Assembly: GCF_018636735.1 (NCBI RefSeq)
Contig: NZ_CP045200.1
Coordinates: 1,426,001-1,490,000, forward strand
Source: Erythrobacter sp. 3-20A1M
GTDB lineage: Bacteria > Pseudomonadota > Alphaproteobacteria > Sphingomonadales > Sphingomonadaceae
Length of the DNA stretch: 64,000 bases
Direction: 5' to 3'
A model generated the notes under the pieces. That model was not told the DNA's origin and ran no database searches. It was given only the letters and a program-made list of their open reading frames with translations. Positions 8,958 to 64,000 of the stretch are shown one piece after another. Position numbers and translations under genes: made by a program. Every line of letters begins with the position of its first letter. Position 1 is the first letter of the stretch.

Positions 8958-9824
8958 ATGCCCTTTATGTCGCGTATCCGGACTCGATCGATGACCGAAC
9001 GCCCTCTCATGTCGATTTATCCTGCAATCCGGGACGACATCGCCGATCTTACGACCCGGCGCCCGCTTCCGGGACGCGGTGTTCCGCATCTCGACCCGTT
9101 CCTGTTTCTGAACCATCATGGCCCGCAGACTTACCCTCCGCGGAACCACGGCCTGCCGTTTGGACCTCACCCGCATCGCGGGTTCGAGACCGTCACCTTC
9201 GTCCTCGCCGGAAGTCTGGCGCATAGCGACAGTAGCGGTGCGCAGAGCGTGGTAAAGGATGGCGGTGTGCAATGGATGACCGCCGGTTCGGGCATCGTCC
9301 ATTCGGAACTTTCGCCGGACACGTTCAAAGCGGAGGGCGGGCCGCTCGAAATACTGCAGCTTTGGGTCAATCTTCCGGCAGCATTGAAGTTTACCGAACC
9401 CGCGTATCGAGAGGTACCGGCCAAGCTCATTCCAGAAGTCGATCTCGGGGAGGGAGCAACCTTGCGACCCGTTTCTGGATTTGACGATGCTCCGGTGGAT
9501 TCGCTGACGGGTATCGCGCTCGGAACGTTGACCCTGGAGGCGGGGGCCGAAATATCTCTGCCGATACCGTCCGATCACACGATTTTCTTCTATACGATCC
9601 GCGGAGAAGCGAAGGCCGGCGGAGCGACGGTTCCCGAGCATCACCTCGCCACCTTCGGCAGTGGCGAGCACCTCGTCATCGCGGCGGAAAAACGGGTGAA
9701 CATTCTGCTCGGCCATGCAGAGCCGATCAGGGAACCGATCGTGGCGCATGGCCCGTTCGTGATGAACAGCGAACGGGAAATCGTCGAAGCGTTCGAGGCC
9801 TATCGTCGCGGTGAATTCGCCTGA
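8958..9824 (+). CDS. Pirin family protein
   Basis: 288 aa bicupin of the pirin family. The N-terminal cupin has the metal-binding pattern around GPHPHRGFETVT and the signature VQWMTAGSGIVHSE; a second cupin covers roughly residues 190-260. Some pirins are quercetin 2,3-dioxygenases and others are redox cofactors, so the function is open. Start is unsure: ATGs at 8958, 8967, 8991 and 9009 are all possible and none has a strong ribosome binding site. It converges with acs. Confidence 0.88.
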   Translation: MPFMSRIRTRSMTERPLMSIYPAIRDDIADLTTRRPLPGRGVPHLDPFLFLNHHGPQTYPPRNHGLPFGPHPHRGFETVTFVLAGSLAHSDSSGAQSVVKDGGVQWMTAGSGIVHSELSPDTFKAEGGPLEILQLWVNLPAALKFTEPAYREVPAKLIPEVDLGEGATLRPVSGFDDAPVDSLTGIALGTLTLEAGAEISLPIPSDHTIFFYTIRGEAKAGGATVPEHHLATFGSGEHLVIAAEKRVNILLGHAEPIREPIVAHGPFVMNSEREIVEAFEAYRRGEFA

Positions 9825-9868
9825 TCGATCGCCTCCCGGAATTTTCGCTTAGCCTCGTCCGCTCTCCC

Positions 9869-11836
<1,968 letters not shown>

Positions 11837-53571: not shown

Positions 53572-54027
53572 TTATTGCGAAAGCACGCCTGCAGCTTGCA
53601 ATGTTGCAATTAGGTCACGGATCGTCTCGCGCGCTTCGCTATCGATCGTCGCTCCGCCATCAGGCAGTTGCGGAGGCGAGGCAAGGTGCCATCCGTCGCG
53701 AAACAGGAGGTGGCAAGCCGCGCTACGATCCCATGCCCGCATGCCGGAAACGGGGGCGCAGAAGAGCCATTCGCCGCCGGTGAAGGTGGCGAGATGGTCG
53801 GGCCGGTCCGCCCAGGACTGGCTCGCGGCGGTGCCCACCAGCCACATGTCACCTTCGTCCGGGTCGGCGGGTGGCGTGTCGGCTACCCCCACGACAGCGG
53901 GCGCGATCAGCGCATCGAGCCGTGCGAGCGCTTCGTTGACGAAGAACTCCTTCTGCGCCTGTCCGGGATAGAGCAGGGGGAGGCTATGCCGAGCAGTGTG
54001 GTTGGCGGACTGGAACGGGTCTGACAT
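53572..54027 (-). CDS. DUF2793 protein at the end of the GTA cluster
   Basis: 151 aa. The N-terminal part has the conserved YPGQAQKEFFVNEALARLDALI of DUF2793 proteins, often found beside phage or GTA tail genes. It lies 27 nt after the g15-like gene on the same strand, and an AAAGGAAG ribosome binding site precedes it. A role in tail tip or host binding is inference. Confidence 0.83.
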   Translation of the reverse strand: MSDPFQSANHTARHSLPLLYPGQAQKEFFVNEALARLDALIAPAVVGVADTPPADPDEGDMWLVGTAASQSWADRPDHLATFTGGEWLFCAPVSGMRAWDRSAACHLLFRDGWHLASPPQLPDGGATIDSEARETIRDLIATLQAAGVLSQ

Positions 54028-54054: not shown

Positions 54055-56229
54055 TTACAGGATGGCAAGCGAAGTGGGCGGGCCGGCCGAGAAGCTCCCC
54101 ACCTGCTGCACCCAGAGGGTCTCGCTGGGGAAGGCGACCTCGAGCGCGTGCATCTCGTCGGCGGCGAAGCGGTATTCGCCCCGGCTGGCGGTCCAGCTAC
54201 GCACGGGGTACGCCAGGTCGCCGATCCCCAGACGGTAGAGTTCGCGTTCCTCGACCAGCGGAGCGTCCACCGCATCTCGCCAGAGCCAGGCACCCCGCGC
54301 GCGACGGGTCCAGGAAAACGTGACCGCGCCATCGCTCTCGGTCGATCGCCTTGTATGGACGGGGGCGAGGGGGCGCACGCCTGCCCCCGGTTTCCGGACA
54401 TCGGCTTCGATCGGCTCCGAGGTGCCTCGTCCGATCGCCGTCATCCGCGTGCCCGCGAGCGACATGGCGGGCGCGCCGGGGAGCGGCAGCAGCGCCTCGT
54501 CGATCAGGATCGCGCTGGTCTCAGCCGCATGGCCCACCTGCGCCATCGGTTCGGTCCCGCCGCGCCCGCGCAACAGGCCGGTCAGCCGCCAGCGGGTTTC
54601 CCCGACCGCTTCCGCATCGAGGAACTGCACGATTTCGTCCCCGACCAGCAGCCGGTTCGCGCCGGCGACCAGCCCCTCCATCGTGGTCGGTGTCAGACGC
54701 ATATGGGCAAAGGACAGATCGACGAGCATGCTGGCCGCCTGTTCGAACCGCACGGCGCGCGAGGGAGGCAAGGGCTCGGCCAGCCGTCCCTCGACCGCCG
54801 CCGCGCGCGCGAAGTCGACCACCGGCACCAGCTCGTCGCCCCGGTGCGCGAATAGCGCCGCGCCATCCTCCGGATGTTCGCCGGAAAGTACCGCGTAGAG
54901 CGGCGGGCCGCTTGCATCGCCGCGCCCGTCCCACGGCAGATCGACCAGGGAGAACCGTAGCGCGCCGGGTGCCCTGTCCCGCGGCAGCACGGGCGATCCG
55001 GCATCGGTCGCGCCGTCCATCGCCGGTACGCCCGCGCCGCTTTCCAGCGCCAGTTCGAGCTCCACGGCGCTATCGCGCCATTCCCAGGCGGTTACCCGCC
55101 ACAGGCCCGCATGTCCCGGAACCCTGACAAGCGCGCCGGGCGCGAACCGCGCGTCGAGCGCGGCGAGCCGCCACGACACGCGCCGACGCGAGGTGCCTTG
55201 GCGCCGCGCCGCATCTTGCAGCAGCCGCCGGGCCTCGGCAGCCGGTAGCGCGACGGGGCAGTCGAACGACCTCTCTCCGTCGCCGGTCGCCCGTCCCTCC
55301 GCGCGTTGGATACCCGGCTGGAAATCGAGCGCCGGATCGTAATAGCGGATCGCGCGCAGCGGGGATGCCGGATCGGTCTCGCGCACCCATTCCGCGCCGG
55401 CATGGGCTGTTCCCTGCGAGAGAACCTCCAGCGCCTCGGGCAAATGGGGTTCGTCGCCCGTGGCTGGCGCGCGCAGTATCGCCTTTCGGGCGAACCCGGC
55501 GATATCGACAGGATAGAGGCGGCCCAGCATCGCGAGCATGTCGCGCGGCGTGCCGCCGTCCACCGCCAGGCCGGTCAAGCCGACCAGCTCGCTCTCGCCG
55601 GAGGCTTGCGGCGACCCGGCCGCAATCGCCCCTAGCGAGACCGATGCGGGCGCTGCCATCACTTCGAAAGTAAGCGCGGGAAGACGATTGCCGAAATCGG
55701 CGAGCGGCAGGTCTTCGAAGACGAGGTAGGCCGTATCGCGAAAGGCAGGGCAATCGGCCCCTATCGCGGCGGCGATCAGCGGATCGGGCGGCTGATCGGC
55801 AAAGCCACGATGGACGCGCAACTGCCCGCCCGTCTTGAGATCGCCCGCCGCCCCGCGCAGCAGCGCGCCATCGGCCCAGATCCGACCGATCGCGGTAATC
55901 GGCCGGCTGCAAACCGCGACTGCGAAGGATGCGGAATAGCTGTAGCTGGTGGTGCTCGGCTGCCCCTTTCCGCCCCCCGCGCTGGACCGACTCTCGTGCA
56001 GTTGGGAGGCCCAGATCACGCTGCCCGGCACGCGCATGGTGCCGTGGATGCGGGCGATCGGCGTGCCGTAGGTCGACGTCGTGAGCGCCAGTTCCCTCAG
56101 CCGCGGTCCTTCGCGTGCCGGTGCCCCGAACACGGAACCGTCGAGCTGCCGCCCGATCGCCGCGCCGAGCAGGCCGCCCACCGGTCCGCCGACCAGTGTT
56201 CCGACAGTCGATAGAACGAGCGTGGCCAT
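54055..56229 (-). CDS. GTA host-specificity/megatron protein (RcGTA g15-like, short form)
   Basis: 724 aa from the ATG at 56229, with AAGGATATC upstream. The N-terminal sequence ATLVLSTVGTLVGGPVGGL and the following segment with GTPIARIHGTMRVPGSVIWA match the tail-tip megatron family. RcGTA g15 is about 1,300 aa; this copy is half that, and I see no TIM-barrel-like hydrolase region in it. It would form the tail tip and contact the recipient. Confidence 0.88.
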   Translation of the reverse strand: MATLVLSTVGTLVGGPVGGLLGAAIGRQLDGSVFGAPAREGPRLRELALTTSTYGTPIARIHGTMRVPGSVIWASQLHESRSSAGGGKGQPSTTSYSYSASFAVAVCSRPITAIGRIWADGALLRGAAGDLKTGGQLRVHRGFADQPPDPLIAAAIGADCPAFRDTAYLVFEDLPLADFGNRLPALTFEVMAAPASVSLGAIAAGSPQASGESELVGLTGLAVDGGTPRDMLAMLGRLYPVDIAGFARKAILRAPATGDEPHLPEALEVLSQGTAHAGAEWVRETDPASPLRAIRYYDPALDFQPGIQRAEGRATGDGERSFDCPVALPAAEARRLLQDAARRQGTSRRRVSWRLAALDARFAPGALVRVPGHAGLWRVTAWEWRDSAVELELALESGAGVPAMDGATDAGSPVLPRDRAPGALRFSLVDLPWDGRGDASGPPLYAVLSGEHPEDGAALFAHRGDELVPVVDFARAAAVEGRLAEPLPPSRAVRFEQAASMLVDLSFAHMRLTPTTMEGLVAGANRLLVGDEIVQFLDAEAVGETRWRLTGLLRGRGGTEPMAQVGHAAETSAILIDEALLPLPGAPAMSLAGTRMTAIGRGTSEPIEADVRKPGAGVRPLAPVHTRRSTESDGAVTFSWTRRARGAWLWRDAVDAPLVEERELYRLGIGDLAYPVRSWTASRGEYRFAADEMHALEVAFPSETLWVQQVGSFSAGPPTSLAIL

Positions 56230-56266
56230 GAACGTGATATCCTTGTGGAGAGGAGTCGGCGGGCCG

Positions 56267-56671
56267 TCATCCGAACCGCCAGCGGCAATGGATCGGCCAG
56301 GGAACCGCCCCCGGCTGGTGGACCACGCGCCTGAGCGAGGCATGCGCGTGAACGAAACCGGTCGGCCCGGTCATCACGAGAAGATGGTGCTGCCCCGGTC
56401 CGGGCCGGGCGAGCACGATGTCGCCGACCCATGCTGGGCCGCCGACGATCCGGCCCCCGGCATTCTCGCAGGACGGAATGAGGTGATCGCAGCTGCGATT
56501 GCGCCAGCCATAGGCACGCGGGAGGGGAAGCGTGATGCCCGCGGCCCCCAGGCTCCATTCGATCACCCCGACGCAATCCAGCCCCAGCGCCGGGTCGCGT
56601 CCATGCAGCCGGAACGGGGTGCCGACCAGCGTCAGGGCGGCAGCGGCGATCGCCGCGCCGCGATCGCTCAT
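56267..56671 (-). CDS. GTA NlpC/P60-like cell-wall peptidase (g14-like)
   Basis: 134 aa from the ATG at 56671, which overlaps the upstream stop. NlpC/P60 catalytic Cys in GLDCVGVIEWSLG and His in HHLLVMTG. It would cut recipient peptidoglycan during DNA entry. Confidence 0.92.
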   Translation of the reverse strand: MSDRGAAIAAAALTLVGTPFRLHGRDPALGLDCVGVIEWSLGAAGITLPLPRAYGWRNRSCDHLIPSCENAGGRIVGGPAWVGDIVLARPGPGQHHLLVMTGPTGFVHAHASLRRVVHQPGAVPWPIHCRWRFG

Positions 56672-57483
56672 CCGGGCATCGCGGGGCGGCGGGTCAGCAG
56701 GTCGTTGCCGGGAAGATGCGCCTCGCCGCGAAAGTTCGCTCCGTTGCCGAACCGCGTGCGGCAGGTCGCCAGCGTGTGATCGCATCCCTCGCGCAGGATC
56801 GCGCGGCTGCCGGGCGGTTGTCCAGCAGGGATCGGATCGATGGTCAGCGCGTCGCCGTCCGCCGCAACCACGCTGGCGCGCAAGCCACGGGCCGGACCGT
56901 CGAGCCAGCGCAGCGAACCGAAGCGATGGAGAGCTGCATCCATCCCTTCAAACCGGGCAATGCCGGTATCGGGGGCGAGCGCCAGCAGCACGACCTCACT
57001 TTCATGGGCCGATGGAGGAAGGTTGCAGCCCGGCCCGCAGAAGGCCGCGCGGCAGGTCGGGCTGGTCCGCGGCACGGTATCGCGGTCGAGTGCTGCCGTT
57101 TCGGGCAGGAGCTGCGCCTCGAAGCCATTGCCGGAATGGGCGACCTCGCCGATCGTGCCGGTGAACAGGGCGATGCGTTCGAGGGTCTCGCAATCGACCG
57201 CGCCCACGATCACGCGGGCGGCGTCGAAGCGCCCGGCGGTAAGGTCGTCCTCGGCGATCCCGTCATGCGAAAGCGCGCCAGAGACCCCGGCGCTGTCGCC
57301 TTCCAGCCCGGCGACCAGCCGGATCGCGGATGGGGCGATCCCCGGGGCGGCGCGATGCGTCAGCCCGTCGAACCACAGGTCGCGATCGTGCGCGCAGAAC
57401 CCGTGCGCGATGCCGTCGCGCCGGAACACCTGCCAATAGGGGACGACCGACTCCAGCGGCCCATCGAGCAGGACCGGGCTCAT
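56668..57483 (-). CDS. GTA tail hub protein (DUF2163, g13-like)
   Basis: 271 aa. Sequence HGFCAHDRDLWFDGLTHRA and the C-terminal CRTRFGNGANFRGEAHLPG with several conserved Cys fit the DUF2163 tail hub family. In RcGTA it holds an iron-sulfur-like Cys cluster at the baseplate. 4-nt overlaps on both sides show translational coupling. Confidence 0.93.
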   Translation of the reverse strand: MSPVLLDGPLESVVPYWQVFRRDGIAHGFCAHDRDLWFDGLTHRAAPGIAPSAIRLVAGLEGDSAGVSGALSHDGIAEDDLTAGRFDAARVIVGAVDCETLERIALFTGTIGEVAHSGNGFEAQLLPETAALDRDTVPRTSPTCRAAFCGPGCNLPPSAHESEVVLLALAPDTGIARFEGMDAALHRFGSLRWLDGPARGLRASVVAADGDALTIDPIPAGQPPGSRAILREGCDHTLATCRTRFGNGANFRGEAHLPGNDLLTRRPAMPG

Positions 57484-59798
57484 ACCGCCTCCCTTATCTC
57501 GACCAGCGGCACGCTGGGCGCTTCGCCCGCGGCGAAGGCGGCACCCGATATGTCGAGCCGGTCGGAGGCGAAGCGGACGGGCACGTCGAACGCGAATCCC
57601 GCACGCACCTCCTCCCCTGCCACCGGAGGTGTGGCGAGCACGATCCAGCCGCCATCCTCCAGGGTGAAGTCACTCGTCTCTTCGATTCCGACCGCGACGC
57701 GCACCGTTGGCGCGCGGGGGCGGGTGATGCGCCGTTCCTGCGCCTCCGCGCCGTCGCCGTAGCGCTTCACCAGCGCGAAGCGGGTGCGCGATCCGTCGCC
57801 CGTCCCGATAAGCTGGTCGAACGGCGTGGGCATGCCCACCATGGCGCGCGAGCTGCAATCGAAGGGATCGGCGATGCGGAAGCCGCGTGCCGCCCCGCGC
57901 CGGGCGCGGAAGAAGGCGAGCAAGGTGTGCCGCTCCTCCTCCGAACGGATGCCCGGCCCGACCTCGAACGAGAGGCGCGCGTCGGCCCATTGCGTGTTGC
58001 GCCGCTCGTGCCCCGAAGCGGTCGCGGCGATGGTGGTGCGAAATTCCGGGCTGACCGCCGCGTCGCGGCCCAGCGCCAGCGGGTAGAGCACATCGTCGAA
58101 AGCTTGCATCTCGTCCTCCGGCGTGGGGATGCGGGTGTATCCGTCGCGCGCCACCTGCGGCAGCGCCCAGACGTAGGAACGGACCGTGCCGCGCCGTTCG
58201 GCCTCGGCCAGCCCGGCGTCGATCGCGCGCCAGAAGGCAGGCGCATCGGCGGCGTAGCGCACGAAACCGGCGAGATATTCCTGCCGGTTGGGCGGGTAGC
58301 CCAGCTGTTCGTCCATGAAGGCATAGGCAGCTGTCCTGCGCCCCTCGCCGCCCGCGGTCAGCCAGTCGTAATCTTCCAGCTGCAGCCCGTCGAAGCGCGG
58401 GTGGGCGAACCCGCCCGGCAAGTTGGCCCGCCGCAGCCCTGGCATGGCGGGATCGAGGATGGTCGGGGTGAACAGCAGCAGCCACACCTCGATTTCGCGC
58501 GGCATGGCCGCGCGCAGCGCGTCCTGGATTCCTTCCGCCAGCGCGGCGAGCGCTTCGCCCGCTTGGTCCAGCACCGCCTGTTGCAGCTCCGACAGCGGTG
58601 CACGCATATCGGTAATCGGGGCGGCAGCATCGCTGAAGGCGGCGCGCGCTGCGCTATCGTAGAGGCAGATCGCGCCGTCCGGGTTCACCCACCACCATGG
58701 CTCGCCCAGTTGCAGGCGCAGCGGCAGGTCGGTTTCCGCCACCAGCGCCATGAAGGCCTGCGCTGTCGCGCGCAGGAAAGCGCGCGCCTCCGGGACACAG
58801 GGCGACAGCAGCGTGGAAGGCGGCTCCCACCCGGTCAGGGCCGGTGCCCCGTCGGGCGCGCGCTGCATCCAGCCGGGCGGGCAGTCCTGCGCCAGCAATT
58901 CGACCGAAACCGAAACCATTGGCTCGAACCCAGCCCGCTCGCACGCGGCGAACAGGCTGCGATGCCAGTTGACGGCCGGTGCGGCGAGTTCGCCCGCCGC
59001 GTTCGCCTCCAGCGCACCGTCGACCCATTCGAGCCGGTAGTGGTGGCTCATCCCGACATAGTGGACGAAGCGCGCGGCATAGCCGAGGCCGCGCATCGCG
59101 CGCACCAGTCGCTCTGGCGTCTGGTTGTAGCTGTCGTCGTAGGCGGTGCACATCCCGGTGCCGTGATGGGGGACCAGCACGTCGCCGATCTCCAGCATGG
59201 CGTCTTGTCCGTCGCAGCGCATCTCGCTCAGCTCGACCCAGCCATTGGCGCGCGCCGGCAACCGGGCGTGGCTCGCCGGGTCGTAGCCGGGCGGGGCGAG
59301 CGAGACGAACATGCGGTCGATATCCGCCGGGTGGACCGGCGCGCCATCCGCCGCCCAACCATCCGCCAGCGCCGAGAACGGCAGTACGATCCGCGCATCC
59401 TCCGGCGTGCCGATGGCGTAGTTCCACAGCCGCACGAACCAGCTGCGCGGTGCGCCGGCGGCATCGCGCCCCTCGATCGTCAGCGTCGGCCCGTGCACCT
59501 CGTCGAGCGGGATGAGCCCGGCCGAGCGCCAGCGGAAGCGGAGCTCGGCATGGGCGTAATCGCGCAGCGTCCGGTAGGCGAGCAGTGGATGATCGAGCGT
59601 ATCCTCGCTCCACCAGATCAGCCCGGCGAGCGCGTCATGGTGGTGGAATTCGCACTCCACCCGCAGCGCGTCCGGGCCGGTGCTGACGACACTGGCGAGC
59701 ATCGGGCGCGGGAAATCGACCGTCCAGAACCGTGGATCGAAGCGCTGGATGAAATCGCTGTCCTGCCCGTTGCGCTCCTTGGCGAGCCAGAAAGCCAT
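57480..59798 (-). CDS. GTA distal tail protein (DUF2460, g12-like) with a large N-terminal TIM-barrel-like extension
   Basis: 772 aa. Residues about 564-772 match the DUF2460/TIGR02217 distal tail protein, around 210 aa, the whole of RcGTA g12; visible segments are SGHERRNTQWADARLSF and FRARRGAARGFRIADPF. The first about 563 residues are additional and resemble a glycosidase-like or tail-associated TIM barrel (TGMCTAYDDSY, LRLQLGEPWWWVNPDG). It has AAGGACC upstream. It may place an enzyme or sheath-like domain on the distal tail. Confidence 0.9.
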   Translation of the reverse strand: MAFWLAKERNGQDSDFIQRFDPRFWTVDFPRPMLASVVSTGPDALRVECEFHHHDALAGLIWWSEDTLDHPLLAYRTLRDYAHAELRFRWRSAGLIPLDEVHGPTLTIEGRDAAGAPRSWFVRLWNYAIGTPEDARIVLPFSALADGWAADGAPVHPADIDRMFVSLAPPGYDPASHARLPARANGWVELSEMRCDGQDAMLEIGDVLVPHHGTGMCTAYDDSYNQTPERLVRAMRGLGYAARFVHYVGMSHHYRLEWVDGALEANAAGELAAPAVNWHRSLFAACERAGFEPMVSVSVELLAQDCPPGWMQRAPDGAPALTGWEPPSTLLSPCVPEARAFLRATAQAFMALVAETDLPLRLQLGEPWWWVNPDGAICLYDSAARAAFSDAAAPITDMRAPLSELQQAVLDQAGEALAALAEGIQDALRAAMPREIEVWLLLFTPTILDPAMPGLRRANLPGGFAHPRFDGLQLEDYDWLTAGGEGRRTAAYAFMDEQLGYPPNRQEYLAGFVRYAADAPAFWRAIDAGLAEAERRGTVRSYVWALPQVARDGYTRIPTPEDEMQAFDDVLYPLALGRDAAVSPEFRTTIAATASGHERRNTQWADARLSFEVGPGIRSEEERHTLLAFFRARRGAARGFRIADPFDCSSRAMVGMPTPFDQLIGTGDGSRTRFALVKRYGDGAEAQERRITRPRAPTVRVAVGIEETSDFTLEDGGWIVLATPPVAGEEVRAGFAFDVPVRFASDRLDISGAAFAAGEAPSVPLVEIREAV

Positions 59799-59842
59799 GT
59801 GGGGGGTCCTTTTCTTTCTTGTTTGGCCCTCAAGCGCCGGGC

Positions 59843-59980
59843 GGCGGGCATCCGCCCGCCTTGGCTACGGCCTGACCGGCCGGCGCGCAGTCGCGCTTGC
59901 GGGCTGCTGGCGCAGCCCGAACCTTTCCAGGCCGTGGTGGCCCGGGAAGTGTCCGGGGCTGCGACCAGCAGCCCCGCAAG
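59843..59980. repeat. REPIN-like hairpin element in the gap between tape-measure and distal-tail genes
   Basis: Three hairpins lie here: 59843-59860 (GGCGGGC/GCCCGCC), 59900-59919 (CGGGCTGC/GCAGCCCG) and 59955-59975 (GGGGCTGC/GCAGCCCC). The last two are in inverted orientation to each other, and CTTGCGGGCTGCTGG (59897-59911) pairs with CCAGCAGCCCCGCAAG (59965-59980) with one extra G. The layout is that of a REPIN. The whole 269-nt gap (59799-60067) has no gene. Confidence 0.6.
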
Positions 59981-60067
59981 GCCACGCGGCCGCCCCGCAG
60001 GTGCCCCGACGCGCAAGCGGCGGGAACAGCACCGAGGACGCGCCGACGGATGTCGGTGCGGAAAAAA

Positions 60068-60640
60068 TCAACCCAACAACGCCCGCCGCACCGCCGCCGC
60101 CACCTGCCGCCCGGACTGGCGCAGCGCGACGGGGCTGTCGGTGCGGTTGGGCTGGGCGAGGCGGATGTCGACCGAGACCTGCCGCGCGCCTTCGCGGCGG
60201 TCCGCGGCGGGCAGCACGCGCCCCGCGCTGGTCGGCACGAACAGCTCCGGCCCGCGCTCGCCCACCAGATAACCGCTGCCGGGCGAGACCGGCCCGCCGG
60301 TCGCGCGGCCCGGCAGGCCGAGCAATCCGCCCAGCAGCGAGCCGAGGATACCGCCCGCGCCGCTCTTCGCCGTACCGCCGAGCAGGCCATCGAGGCCGAG
60401 CTTCAGCGCCTGGGCCGCCACCTGGTCGATCACCGACAGCGCGGTGCGGCGCAGATCCTCGAAGCCGAGGCTGCCCTTGCGAATGGCGGACAGCAGCCCG
60501 CGCTCGAGCACGTCGCCCGCCCTGCCGAAGCCCGACACCAGCTGGCTGTCCACGGTCGCGCGCATCCGCGCGACGTCGGCAGCGAAGCCTTGCGTGCTGG
60601 CGCGCACTTCGATCAGCATTTCGTCGATCGGATCATCCAT
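60068..60640 (-). CDS. GTA tape measure protein (g11-like)
   Basis: 190 aa. An N-terminal helical region (MLIEVRASTQGFAADVARM) is followed by a Gly-rich segment (GSLLGGLLGLPGRATGGPVS) and a C-terminal motif (YLVGERGPELFVPTSAGRVL) typical of phage tape measure ends. RcGTA g11 is about 219 aa, so a short tail is inferred. It overlaps the chaperone gene by 8 nt. Confidence 0.9.
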   Translation of the reverse strand: MDDPIDEMLIEVRASTQGFAADVARMRATVDSQLVSGFGRAGDVLERGLLSAIRKGSLGFEDLRRTALSVIDQVAAQALKLGLDGLLGGTAKSGAGGILGSLLGGLLGLPGRATGGPVSPGSGYLVGERGPELFVPTSAGRVLPAADRREGARQVSVDIRLAQPNRTDSPVALRQSGRQVAAAVRRALLG

Positions 60641-60830
60641 CTCTGTCGCGCTCCATCATTCTGGCGAGATCGGTGCGGGAGAGGCCCGCCACCGAGACAT
60701 GCGTCGGGTCCGCCAGGGCTTGGGCCAGCTCCTCGGGCGTGGCGGCCCAGAATTCGTCCGGTCGCCAGCCGAGCGCGCGGGCGGCCAGCGCCAGCAGGCG
60801 CGGCGCGGTCTCTCGGAAGGCGTCGCTCAT
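60633..60830 (-). CDS. GTA tail assembly chaperone (g10.1/rcc01693-like)
   Basis: 65 aa. Helical with the conserved LGWRPDEFWAATPEELAQAL, matching the short phage tail assembly chaperone encoded between g10 and g11 in RcGTA. Overlaps both neighbours, so expression is coupled. Confidence 0.85.
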   Translation of the reverse strand: MSDAFRETAPRLLALAARALGWRPDEFWAATPEELAQALADPTHVSVAGLSRTDLARMMERDRDG

Positions 60831-61144
60831 CCGCTACCCTTCAGGATCGTGCCGAGCAGGGTGCGCAAGGGCTTGGCGCAGGCGGCAAGCCCCGCCGCGA
60901 CCACCGCTTCGCCGACCTGCTCGCGCGTCAGCGCCTCGCGCCCGGCGAGGCAATGCCAGAACAGCGCCGCCATCTCGGCCAGCCGCAGCTCGCCCGCCGC
61001 CGCCCGGTCGACCAGCGCGAACAGCGGGCCGAGCTCCTCCTCCGCCGCGACCAGCGCGGTGAAGCTGGGGCGCAGCAGATGCGGCCGCCCGGCGATCGCA
61101 AGCGCGGCTTCCCCGCGCAGCTCGTTGGGCACGGGGCCGCTCAT
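60827..61144 (-). CDS. GTA g10-family protein (tail assembly chaperone)
   Basis: 105 aa from the ATG at 61144. Typical N-terminus with NELRGEAALAIAGRPHLLRP, then a helical core with LVAAEEELGPLFALV. The family is GTA-gp10. The start overlaps the g9 stop by 4 nt. Confidence 0.88.
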   Translation of the reverse strand: MSGPVPNELRGEAALAIAGRPHLLRPSFTALVAAEEELGPLFALVDRAAAGELRLAEMAALFWHCLAGREALTREQVGEAVVAAGLAACAKPLRTLLGTILKGSG

Positions 61145-61548
61145 GCGGGCATCACCGGGCCGGAGCTTTCCAGCTGCATGGTATAATTGCGCTCGCCGTT
61201 GAAATCGCCGGCATAGTCGAGCCGCTGGACCAGGAAGCGCCCGCGCAGCTTCGCCCCGTCCTCGAACGACAGCTCGTAATCGTCGATCGTACCCGCAAGC
61301 GCATGGCCCTGCACCCGCGCCTCCGCCTGCGAGCCGAGGAAGATACCCGCCGCGGAGACCGAGACCGAGCGCGTTCCCGCGCCCGACAGCAGCTCGCGCC
61401 AGCCGCCCGATTCCTTGTGCGTGACGACCACCGTGTCGCCATTGATCGACAGCTGCGTGGTGCGCAGCCCGGCAACGGTCTGGTAGGCGGCGGGGGTGGC
61501 CCCGTCGCCGATCTTGAGAAGGAATGCGGAGCCTTTCTGGGCTGTCAT
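61141..61548 (-). CDS. GTA major tail tube protein (TP901-1 family, g9-like)
   Basis: 135 aa from the ATG at 61548, with AAAAAAGGATC upstream. The N-terminal AQKGSAFLLKIGDGATPAAY and GRFLVQRLDYAGDFNGE are typical of the TP901-1-type major tail protein, which forms the tail tube. A strong SD suits its high copy number. Confidence 0.92.
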   Translation of the reverse strand: MTAQKGSAFLLKIGDGATPAAYQTVAGLRTTQLSINGDTVVVTHKESGGWRELLSGAGTRSVSVSAAGIFLGSQAEARVQGHALAGTIDDYELSFEDGAKLRGRFLVQRLDYAGDFNGERNYTMQLESSGPVMPA

Positions 61549-61583
61549 GATGGGATCCTTTTTTGTGGGGCGAAGAACGGGCT

Positions 61584-61710
61584 CCCCTCCCGCTTGCGGG
61601 AGGGGTCGGGGGTGGGCAGGGTGAAGGGCGGGCAGGCTGGCCCACCCTGCTGCGACTAGACGCCGCCAAGCGGCGCCAAGTCTCGCTGCCCCTCCCGCGA
61701 GCGGGAGGGG
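61584..61710. repeat. Paired inverted hairpins (REPIN-like) between g8 and g9
   Basis: Two nearly identical hairpins, CCCCTCCCGC-tt-GCGGGAGGGG at 61584-61605 and CCCCTCCCGC-ga-GCGGGAGGGG at 61689-61710, flank an inner inverted repeat (GCAGGGTG and CACCCTGC). The right hairpin abuts the g8 stop codon at 61712. The pattern fits a mobile REP pair inserted in the operon. Confidence 0.65.
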
Positions 61711-61711
61711 G

Positions 61712-62104
61712 TCAGGTGGAGAGACACCGCATCCGGTATTCGAGCAGCGTGCCGCGCGCATTGTCGGCGCGGCGTTCGGCGCGGGCGCGCAGGAAGGCGA
61801 TCGAGGCGATGGCGAAGCCGCTTTGCGCGCGCGGCAGGGCCTCTATCCGCCGCTCGATCGCATCGACCAATGGGCCGTCGCCTGCCGGGTCGTTTCCGCG
61901 CGTGTGCAGTTCCAGCGCGACGCGAAGCTCGCGGCCCGCCTGCGTCTTCGTGCTCCAGTCGGTCGAGGCGCTGGCGACCAGCGCCAGCCAGGGCGGCGTG
62001 GCACGCACGATGGCCTCCTCCGCGACGATGTTGAGGTGGTCGGTCAGGGCCGGGTCGCTCGCCAGCCAGTCGATCAATGCGGCGCGCAGGGCGGTTTCCA
62101 TCAT
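61712..62104 (-). CDS. GTA tail terminator protein (DUF3168, g8-like)
   Basis: 130 aa from the ATG at 62104 (or ATG 62101). The N-terminal METALRAALIDWLASDPALT and the central TPPWLALVASASTDWSTKTQAG fit DUF3168, the tail terminator/completion protein. The hairpin pair downstream separates it from g9. Confidence 0.9.
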   Translation of the reverse strand: MMETALRAALIDWLASDPALTDHLNIVAEEAIVRATPPWLALVASASTDWSTKTQAGRELRVALELHTRGNDPAGDGPLVDAIERRIEALPRAQSGFAIASIAFLRARAERRADNARGTLLEYRMRCLST

Positions 62105-62271
62105 CGCTCGTCTCCGAACAGGGGCCAGAGCAGCGCTGCGTCGCGCCACCGGGCTTCGTCGCCACGCCGCCGGTGCAGCATGTCGTCGGCCCGCGCACCG
62201 GCTGCTTTCGCGGCGCGGTCGGTCATTCGACGCACTAGCGCCGCGCCGCCGGTCAGCTGCGCGGCGATCAT
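62101..62271 (-). CDS. Unassigned small ORF at the GTA g7 (stopper) position
   Basis: 56 aa, strongly basic N-terminal half (MIAAQLTGGAALVRRMTDRA) and a C-terminal WRDAALLWPLFGDER. It overlaps g6 and g8 by 4 nt. In RcGTA this slot holds a roughly 110-aa head-tail stopper. I see no stopper-like features, so it is either a divergent short replacement or a remnant. Confidence 0.6.
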   Translation of the reverse strand: MIAAQLTGGAALVRRMTDRAAKAAGARADDMLHRRRGDEARWRDAALLWPLFGDER

Positions 62272-62813
62272 GCGAGGCGCATCCGGCGCCACGGCTGCCA
62301 CAGCGCGGCGATGGCGGCGGGCGGTTGCGATTCGCCCCCTTCTACCCGCTCGCGGAAGAGATGCGCGGCGAGGCGCAGCATCCCGTGGCGCAGACCGTCG
62401 GGCACGGCGGACCATGTGGCGGCGAGCCCCGCATCGAAGCGGACGCGCACCCGGCCAGCAGCGCCCTGGCGCAGCAGCCGGACATGCCCGGTTCCGTCCG
62501 CCGCGATGTCGAAGGCGTAGGCATCGGCGGCGAAGGGGAAGGCGGGACCGTCGGCCGGAACCCCCTCGACCTGCGTGATCGCCAGCACTGGCCGGGTGCC
62601 TAGCACCCGCCACTCGCCCGATGCGGGCAGCGTTTCCTCCGCCGTCGCCACCAGCGGCAGCACGCCGGTAAAGGCCTCGCACGCCTCCGCCGCCGTGCGC
62701 AGCAGCGCGGCGAGCGCCGCATCGTCGCCGGTGGTGGTGATCGCCAGCCAGTGCTTCAATTCGGCCAGCGCCGCCGCCCCGGGGTCGGGCGGGGTGATGA
62801 AAGTCCGCTGCAT
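62268..62813 (-). CDS. GTA head-tail adaptor (g6-like)
   Basis: 181 aa from the ATG at 62813. Helical connector with LAELKHWLAITTTGDDAALAAL and a C-terminal MLRLAAHLFRERVEGG typical of phage gp6/HK97 gp6 adaptor proteins. It links the portal to the tail. Separated from the capsid gene by an 86-nt gap with a strong hairpin. Confidence 0.9.
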   Translation of the reverse strand: MQRTFITPPDPGAAALAELKHWLAITTTGDDAALAALLRTAAEACEAFTGVLPLVATAEETLPASGEWRVLGTRPVLAITQVEGVPADGPAFPFAADAYAFDIAADGTGHVRLLRQGAAGRVRVRFDAGLAATWSAVPDGLRHGMLRLAAHLFRERVEGGESQPPAAIAALWQPWRRMRLA

Positions 62814-62856
62814 GGGAGAGTGGCTCCGGTCAGTTGTGAGAGTGCGGAAAGGGTGT

Positions 62857-62892
62857 TTGTTTGCGCACGCCCATCCGGGCGCGCGCAAACAA
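62857..62892 (-). terminator. Strong hairpin between the GTA capsid gene and the adaptor gene
   Basis: TTGTTTGCGC-a-CGCCC / GGGCG-c-GCGCAAACAA, a 15-bp stem with one mismatch and a 4-nt loop, 7 nt after the capsid stop. No T run follows on the minus strand, so it may act as an RNA-stability or partial termination element rather than a full terminator. Confidence 0.55.
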
Positions 62893-62899
62893 CAACCTC

Positions 62900-64000
62900 T
62901 TACCCCTCGATCTTCAGCAGCTTGATCGCCGCGCTATCCAGCACCTGCCCGCCCACGCGCTTGGTGGCGTAGAAATGCACGAACGGCTTGTTGGTGAAGG
63001 GATCGCGCAGCACCTGCGTCGCGCTGCGCTCCGCGATCAGATAGCCGTGGCGGAAATTGCCGAAGGCGATGGGGAAAGCGCCGGTCGCGATGTCGGGCAT
63101 GTCCTCCGCCTCGATCACCGGATAGCCGAGCAGCCGGTCGGGCTGTCCCTCCACCATGCCCGGCTGCCACAGGAACGCGCCGTCGCCGGTCTTCAGCTTG
63201 CGCACCTGCGCCAGCGTGGCCGAGTTCATCACGAAGCTCGCGCCCTGGCGATGCCCTGCCTTCAGCGTGTGGACCAGATCGATCAGCAGCGCGTCGGGGG
63301 CCATGCCCAGCCCGGCATCGTCGCCGGTACCCACATATTGCAGCGTGCCGAAGGCGCGGATCGAGTCCGCGGCGGCGGAAGCCGGCGCGGCGAGGAACCC
63401 CTCCGGCTGGTTGGTGCCGGTGCCGGTCACGAAGGCCGCCCCTTCCGCGCGGGCGAACTCCATCGCGATCTCGCTCGCCAGCCACGCCTCCAGATCGAAG
63501 CCCGCATCGTCCAGCATCGCCTGCGAAGCGGCGGGGTTGGCGTAGAGCTCGCCCGTCGGCGGGGCGATCTCGGCGAAGCGCGGGGTGTCGGTCTCCGGCC
63601 GACCGGCGGTCTCGCTGACCCAGCCCGAGGCGGTGCCGCCGGTGGACACAAGCTTGCGATAACCGGCGCTGCCGGTCTGCACGACCTGCGCGATGGCGCG
63701 GATCGGGCTGATCTCGGTCAGTTCGCGGGCGATCAGCGCGTCGATCTGGCGCGGCACGGCATAGCCGCCGTCCGATGGCACCGCGCCGCTGATCGACTTG
63801 ATCTCCGCGGTGGAGCCGCGCCGCAGGTAGCCGTCGACGAAGCCTTTCACTTCGGGCGTGTCGGAGACGGGCGCGAGCGCGGGACGTGTCGCCGCGCGGG
63901 CGATGCGGTCGACCCGGGCCTTCACCTCGTCGACGTCGGTGCGCAACGTCGCGATCGCGGCGTCGGCCCCTTTCTGCTTCGCTTCGAGAACGTCCTGGCG
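62900..64000 (-). CDS. GTA major capsid protein (HK97 fold, g5-like, 5' end outside the window)
   Basis: About 366 residues up to the window edge; the frame is open to base 64000, so the N-terminus is missing. The upstream part includes the helical delta-like segment (ATLRTDVDEVKARVDRIARA) and the HK97 N-arm (AVPSDGGYAVPRQIDALIAR). Further HK97 motifs are VSETAGRPETDTPRFAEI and GTGTNQPEGFL. It forms the GTA head shell. Confidence 0.95.
   Translation of the reverse strand, partial: RQDVLEAKQKGADAAIATLRTDVDEVKARVDRIARAATRPALAPVSDTPEVKGFVDGYLRRGSTAEIKSISGAVPSDGGYAVPRQIDALIARELTEISPIRAIAQVVQTGSAGYRKLVSTGGTASGWVSETAGRPETDTPRFAEIAPPTGELYANPAASQAMLDDAGFDLEAWLASEIAMEFARAEGAAFVTGTGTNQPEGFLAAPASAAADSIRAFGTLQYVGTGDDAGLGMAPDALLIDLVHTLKAGHRQGASFVMNSATLAQVRKLKTGDGAFLWQPGMVEGQPDRLLGYPVIEAEDMPDIATGAFPIAFGNFRHGYLIAERSATQVLRDPFTNKPFVHFYATKRVGGQVLDSAAIKLLKIEG

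Follow-up and report, generated by a model that had tools for sequence, protein, structure and literature searches.

In a 64,000-nucleotide window of the Erythrobacter sp. 3-20A1M genome (contig NZ_CP045200.1, positions 1,426,001 to 1,490,000) we analyzed g12, the distal tail gene of a gene transfer agent (GTA) cluster of the RcGTA type, and found that its 772-residue product joins a tail-sheath module of the phage N4 type, in frame, to the distal tail protein (Dit). The reading we favor, at a probability of about 0.7, is that g12 in the RcGTA-like GTAs of Sphingomonadales carries this module ahead of Dit, gives rise to two products that would share a mixed ring, and through the module probably cuts glycans. 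What we find most interesting is a conserved second start codon within the frame, which makes the fusion a probable two-product gene; judged by its layout, the gene appears to be built to make the ring protein with and without the module.

Results

The g12 frame (57480..59798, minus strand, as are all GTA features given below) was defined from the open reading frame (ORF) call, Pfam matches and frame lengths. Its front part consists of NCTSP_N (PF23844; residues 17-205, 59184..59750; 317 bits, E value 3e-95) followed by the TIM barrel TIM-barrel_NCTSP (PF23845; residues 210-554, 58137..59171; 493 bits, 4e-148). The Pfam cut-off is 27 bits for both families and, with both matches above it and in the correct order, the protein belongs to the NCTSP tail-sheath family. 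Behind them lies DUF2460 (PF09343; residues 568-769, 57492..58097; E value 3e-72), and like the other two this match is far over its cut-off. TIGR02217 matches the same part (residues 566-769, 187 bits against a cut-off of 136.65) over model positions 1-209 of 210, which marks it as an RcGTA-type distal tail protein. Counted from Met564, the Dit part has 209 residues, compared with 210 for RcGTA Rcc01695 in the PDB. An earlier sequence-only reading of this DNA had placed the beginning of the DUF2460 part at about residue 564, with the length of RcGTA g12, and had taken the first 563 residues to be a complete extra module; our domain assignments bear out both points. Among solved structures, the Dit part corresponds to RcGTA Rcc01695 and the R4C Dit and the front part to N4 gp64 and gp65. 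The nearest relatives of the whole protein come from an alphaproteobacterial metagenome-assembled genome (62% identity) and then from Alteraurantiacibacter and Erythrobacter (60-61%). The alignment to phrog_6040 covers residues 8-712 and hence reaches the Dit part, and phrog_2913, annotated as a glycoside hydrolase, matches the Dit part; the naming of Dit-matching families as glycoside hydrolases probably stems from fusions like this one. A search of g12 against a defence-system library gave zero matches. A 980-residue open frame runs antisense to g12 (57330-60272, plus strand) and is probably an effect of high GC content.

Met564 is encoded by an ATG at 58107-58109, the position where the separate Dit gene begins in RcGTA, and opens a 209-residue frame for Dit alone (57480..58109) with a Shine-Dalgarno (SD)-like GGAGG at 58115..58119, 5 nt before the ATG. 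This internal start had not been foreseen by the sequence-only reading. We followed it through 99 distinct fusions, obtained from 121 loci with module and Dit by removing repeated junction sequences and including some with an interrupted module. At the residue-564 column 57 have ATG, 38 GTG and two TTG, and the remaining two (L129 and L137) have ATG one codon off. Valine, where present in this column, is always GTG (38/38, against a GTG share of 54% among the valine codons of these genes) and leucine always TTG (2/2, against 13% of leucine codons). An SD-like word of at least 4 nt precedes the internal start in 97 of the 99, compared with 15% of 2698 other internal ATG or GTG codons. Synonymous resampling of the same residues gave an expectation of 71% for words of at least 4 nt (observed, 98%) and of 36% for words of at least 5 nt (observed, 74%), with none of 500 resamplings as high in either case. 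Across the 771 columns of the alignment, start codons and SD words were combined at only two places, the start of the long form and residue 564. On a tree of Dit from 98 of the 99 fusions, with the two off-column cases coded as ATG, the type of start codon changes at least 18 times and always to another start codon.

The long form also has a start of its own: 68 of the 74 sequences with that column have ATG or GTG, 62 of these 68 with an SD word of at least 4 nt. The linker between module and Dit varies from 8 to 20 residues, with one outlier, and the frame is kept across it. The frame of the module is broken in nine loci, three of which share the same Dit match and are probably one gene, and in eight of the nine Dit is complete and its start kept. 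Five genomes have an interrupted or shortened module together with a complete Dit and its own start codon (L155 in G010, L122 in G035, L124 in G140, L126 in G072 and L125 in G144). The junction thus has an in-frame start codon and SD word that are conserved beyond coding constraint, and therefore the simplest reading is that the 772-residue and the 209-residue proteins would both be made.

The fusion, which the sequence-only reading had described for this locus, recurs across the order. Among 147 Sphingomonadales genomes the module occurs in 72 and DUF2460 in 75, including all 72 with the module; comparison of the frame lengths of the two matches places them in one frame in 67 of the 72, the other five being the genomes just named. 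GTA_TIM, the TIM family of the g15 megatron, was found in none of the 147. DUF2460 occurs without the module in three genomes, of which G021 and G065 have a long g15 carrying another insert and G039 has a g15 of a distant kind. In a sample of 289 Alphaproteobacteria, four genomes have the module (three Sphingomonadales and G303), 29 have GTA_TIM and none has both; DUF2460 is present in 48, of which 27 also have GTA_TIM, four have the module and 17 have neither. Within the order, fusions to Dit span six family-level groups (f1, f3, f4, f6, f7 and f8). A number of IMG/VR contigs (L022-L051 and L053) and the fecal 'Bacteriophage sp.' MT840053.1, though filed as viral, resemble pieces of GTA clusters from Sphingomonadales.

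In this locus g15 lacks the peripheral TIM domain. Its ORF (54055..56343) has 762 residues from the first ATG, but a length of 724 residues, with a probable start at 56229, is suggested by a Met39-Ala-Thr that is invariant in the family alignment; this is the length that the sequence-only reading had given. Against the RcGTA megatron (1304 residues) the N-terminal part scores 134 bits and the C-terminal part weakly, at 13 bits (22 bits against the R4C megatron), and the peripheral region of the RcGTA megatron has zero match in g15. The Pfam domains Phage-tail_3 and Rcc01698_C are retained, and the score for the GTA megatron equivalog NF048004 is 373 bits, under its cut-off of 800 bits, with the peripheral region absent. 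GTA_TIM (PF13547) matched neither g12 nor g15 of this locus. A predicted structure of g15 (mean predicted local distance difference test score, pLDDT, 67) was used solely to look for an eight-fold alpha/beta pattern, which was not seen.

We measured the gap in g15, that is, the residues between the adhesin-like and central parts, over the loci read. A short g15 is general beside such fusions: the gap is 33-105 residues in 89 distinct genes adjoining a Dit fusion, 42-43 residues in three genes adjoining a fusion of the module to the hub (see below) and 511-769 residues in 26 distinct genes with GTA_TIM. A further 15 g15 sequences (13 distinct genes) have neither TIM family, with a gap of about 120 residues in the distant L203 and L207. 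The other 13, from other alphaproteobacterial elements (L192-L196, L199-L201, L204-L206, L208 and L210), carry inserts in the place of the peripheral domain, and in the five representatives tested no Pfam family was found within the insert. Homology of the g12 module to the TIM region of g15 or to the other g15 inserts was rejected: profile-profile comparison with hhalign, also with phage sequences added, gave probabilities of at most 0.6%. With no kinship detectable between the two TIM families, we take the arrangement to be a replacement at a neighbouring place, not a move.

The AlphaFold2 model of g12 (29 sequences, mean pLDDT 80) shows an eight-stranded alpha/beta barrel at about residues 214-546, like those of known glycoside hydrolases, with ten-residue means of pLDDT of 81-96 except for 59-63 at residues 251-270. 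The nearest structure is N4 gp64 (Z 30, root-mean-square deviation 2.2 over 301 residues, 29% identity in the barrel). After it, the 50 structures listed include beta-galactosidases, beta-amylases, PgaB and other glycosidase-type barrels at Z 19-23 (beta-galactosidase 1kwg, 23.2; beta-amylase 3voc and PgaB 4p7q, 21.8). The sequence-only reading had proposed a barrel that was sheath-like or hydrolase-like, and the prediction indeed gives a TIM barrel with kin of both kinds. The RcGTA megatron was not seen among the structural matches listed, but its absence is uninformative, since its chain in the Foldseek copy of the PDB has only 439 residues. All 106 aligned modules, which come from GTAs, prophage-like elements, podoviruses, myoviruses and siphoviruses, have Asp221, Glu300, Glu366 (codon 58701-58703) and Glu475 (codon 58374-58376); in the model these residues, which form a putative cleft, lie at or just after barrel strands 1, 3, 4 and 6. 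A glycan-cutting role for the module is likely. Pairwise ratios of non-synonymous to synonymous substitution (dN/dS) have a median of 0.23 in the module, over 260 pairs that are not independent, and of 0.17 in Dit (259 pairs), which indicates purifying selection.

Another finding that the sequence-only reading had not foreseen is that the module has g13, the hub, as its fusion partner in three elements (L139, L141 and L153, from genomes G013, G026 and G303). These elements have a separate Dit of 209-215 residues and a short g15; L139 has a probable tape measure of 815 residues, as in a prophage, whereas that of L153 is short and matches RcGTA_tape weakly. In-frame start codons occur 14-20 residues before the hub match, and no SD word there is longer than 3 nt. 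Two Lokiviruses, Halfdan and W9, have the NCTSP gene directly after a gene annotated as distal tail protein, and no hub similarity was detected in the C-terminal part of these two NCTSP proteins. A tree was built from 69 barrels, of which 59 (out of 61 chosen) belong to Dit fusions and 10 are others, with L054 and Nerthus left out; in it the three hub fusions form one group (support 100/99) beside the Lokivirus and N4-type barrels (96/86). The Dit fusions occupy one side of a moderately supported branch (92/79), except that L052 is nested inside them on well-supported branches. L052 is a viral contig, from a podovirus whose portal and coat proteins are P22-like; the position of its NCTSP protein (8992-11328) suggests that the module passed from a GTA, or from close kin of one, into a phage. 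From this grouping it is most likely that the Dit fusion arose once and was then inherited, and that the module has passed to at least one virus.

The cluster around g12 lies in a 3.1-Mb single-contig genome and runs, on the minus strand, in the order terminase, portal, g5, g6, g8, g9, g10, g11, g12, g13, g14, g15 and a DUF2793 gene. Head-tail genes from terminase to g15 are present together with a short tape measure, as expected of an RcGTA-like head-tail cluster. The genes for portal (PF04860) and terminase (PF03237) are past the edge of the window (locus L056). Upstream of g12 we find the major capsid gene g5 (62900..63946, PF05065), the head-tail connector g6 (62268..62888, TIGR02215), the tail completion gene g8 (61712..62149, PF11367), the tail tube gene g9 (61141..61761, PF06199), g10 (longest ORF 60827..61669, PF11836) and the tape-measure gene g11 (60068..60640, 190 residues, with matches to tape-measure PHROGs). 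The true start of g10 is probably later, because Phage_TAC_11 (PF11836) sits at residues 185-278 of the longest ORF. Downstream are an unfused hub g13 (56668..57483, TIGR02218, 163 bits), the NlpC/P60 cell-wall peptidase g14 (longest ORF 56267..56785, PF00877, with the true start probably internal) and, directly after g15, the DUF2793 gene (53572..54027, PF10983). The ten flanking ORFs tested encode proteins of OmpA-type, MFS, Hsp33-like, aminotransferase, protease-like, DUF3800, EAL/GGDEF and IS1595 transposase families, plus two without a family; none is an integrase, replication or lysogeny gene.

Discussion

In the scenario we favor, a non-contractile sheath module of the N4 type became fused, in frame, to the upstream end of the Dit gene in an ancestor of the order's GTAs, and the fusion retained the start codon and ribosome-binding site of Dit. 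The megatron lacks a TIM-bearing peripheral domain, and the NCTSP module is on g12 instead. Two proteins, a 772-residue sheath-Dit and a 209-residue free Dit, would most likely be made from the one gene, and both would enter the six-membered Dit ring, so that the distal tail and baseplate would be surrounded by a limited number of sheath modules. These would bind glycans of the surface or of biofilms, and probably cut them, ahead of DNA delivery. As to placement (literature statements here and below come from passages of the papers cited), the N-terminus of Dit in RcGTA contacts the hub and megatron (PMC7296036), and a module at that N-terminus would therefore sit near the former place of the peripheral domain. 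A more detailed version is that the two starts set a fixed ratio of sheath-Dit to free Dit and that a mixed six-fold ring carries active glycosidases, opening polysaccharide for DNA delivery as a counterpart of RcGTA TspA; the ring would perhaps be 3+3, in keeping with a three-fold baseplate and with the three TIM domains missing from g15. We regard this version as tentative and, taken whole, rather doubtful.

Several points weigh against our reading. With regard to the second product, (i) the 99 fusions are related, and the P value of 8e-11 for valine is overstated as a result; (ii) the acidic linker accounts for much of the SD signal, with 71% expected from coding, and SD words of 6 nt are in only slight excess (17% against 13%, with 19 of 500 resamplings as high); (iii) the contrast between Dit and hub junctions is weak, with three sequences on the hub side and start codons present there too; and (iv) the DNA fits either product alone if the other start is silent. 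As for the swap, the inserts in 13 of the 15 g15 sequences with neither TIM family are 363-454 residues long, and module and short g15 became associated independently no more than about two or three times. With respect to structure, most of model residues 560-617 have pLDDT below 50, which is why the geometry of module and Dit is taken from RcGTA. In glycoside hydrolases of clan GH-A the catalytic acid pair lies at the ends of strands 4 and 7, with the nucleophile on strand 7. Glu366 follows strand 4 in our model, but Glu475 ends strand 6, and therefore catalysis by the barrel is only putative. Moreover, N4 gp64 is nowhere called an enzyme in the passages of the N4 sheath literature that we drew on.

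Alternatively, the barrel may be inactive and the module no more than a sheath with a structural or receptor-binding role, which would be compatible with two products. N4 gp64 and gp65 do form a six-fold non-contractile tail sheath in which gp65 is the receptor-binding protein (PMC12633501). Nevertheless, the invariance of the acidic cleft residues in every module, and the fact that glycosidases and their kin are the best structural matches listed after gp64, argue for a working cleft, and we consider an inactive barrel somewhat unlikely. Less likely, in our view, is a simple fusion yielding the 772-residue protein alone, with the internal start codon left over from a once separate Dit gene. 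Such a fusion would account for the frame being kept across a linker of variable length and for the well-formed start of the long form; it would not readily explain why, in six family-level groups and through at least 18 changes, the codon is still ATG, GTG or TTG (with two one-codon shifts), nor why SD words exceed the coding expectation.

The sequence-only reading had itself offered the idea that the domain moved from g15 to g12. The two halves of the observation behind it stand, in that g15 is without a TIM domain and g12 has one, and the idea draws further support from the absence of genomes with both TIM families in either sample and from the glycosidase type of both barrels (there is a weak GH113 match in one GTA_TIM protein). 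What fails is the kinship, as the two families have no profile similarity and the relatives of the module, its NCTSP_N part included, are phage sheath proteins; relocation is accordingly disfavored and very improbable. We give equally little credence to the view that the cluster is a decayed prophage whose fusion is not under selection. The interrupted or shortened modules in five of 72 genomes would fit decay, but dN/dS values near 0.2, the frame shared in the other 67 and the want of an integrase among the ten flanking ORFs tested all speak against it.

If this is true, Sphingomonadales GTAs have undergone a second and larger component swap, after that of the head completion protein already in print (PMC9765227): in about half of the order, as sampled, a phage sheath module sits on a different protein and replaces a large baseplate domain, in a gene whose layout points to two products from one frame. 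One and the same domain is common to podoviruses, myoviruses, siphoviruses, GTAs and prophage-like elements, where its partner is Dit, the hub or neither. Two questions become directly testable, namely the role of TIM domains at the baseplates of GTAs and RcGTA-like phages, and how a six-fold ring is matched to a three-fold baseplate.

With regard to what is in print, the passages available to us from the GTA and N4 literature (PMC7296036, PMC13420450, PMC11409702, PMC9765227, PMC10883770, PMC6821227, PMC10783043, PMC10276861, PMC9127768, PMC8669472 and PMC12633501) do not mention the Dit fusion, although prior notice of it is possible, and a literature search on internal starts gave, among the titles listed, none on GTAs, the passages themselves not having been searched for these. 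The peripheral domain of R4C has been predicted to be mannanase-like, and the R4C Dit has been linked to a glycoside hydrolase family through PSI-BLAST and Pfam (PMC10276861). Neither this remark nor phrog_6040 or phrog_2913, in the form seen, states the fusion, the g15 swap or the internal start.

The Erythrobacter cluster can be compared with several known systems. It shares with RcGTA the Dit family, the corresponding gene order (Rcc01695 for g12 and Rcc01698 for g15) and, in g15, the adhesin-like part and C-terminal Pfam domains. It differs in that the RcGTA Dit is without an N-terminal module, and in that the RcGTA megatron has a peripheral region (residues 230-744) in a three-fold baseplate (PMC7296036), which is absent here. 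With N4 gp65:gp64 (PDB 9lc0 and 9yf4) it shares the same two Pfam domains, as seen in an N4-like phage; in N4 they are divided between two proteins that surround a 450-Angstrom tail (PMC12633501), whereas here they form one 563-residue module on a GTA Dit. The three hub fusions have the same module, an RcGTA-type baseplate and a short g15, but are joined to g13 with Dit separate and, unlike the Dit fusions, have no SD-like word of at least 4 nt at the start codons near the junction. The Lokivirus proteins likewise leave Dit separate. A parallel in function may be the tailspike TspA of RcGTA, a glycan- and biofilm-degrading device around the distal tail that contacts Dit and the peripheral domain of the megatron, with up to six trimers per particle touching the OB domain of Dit (PMC13420450, a July 2026 preprint). 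According to the same source, the role of the peripheral TIM domain of RcGTA is unknown, and TspA is a separate, detachable beta-helix trimer, reported only from Rhodobacterales and missing from species outside that order that have the megatron. The Sphingomonadales module, by comparison, is a covalently attached TIM barrel with putative activity, and we consider sheath-Dit a good candidate for doing the same job as TspA in another form.

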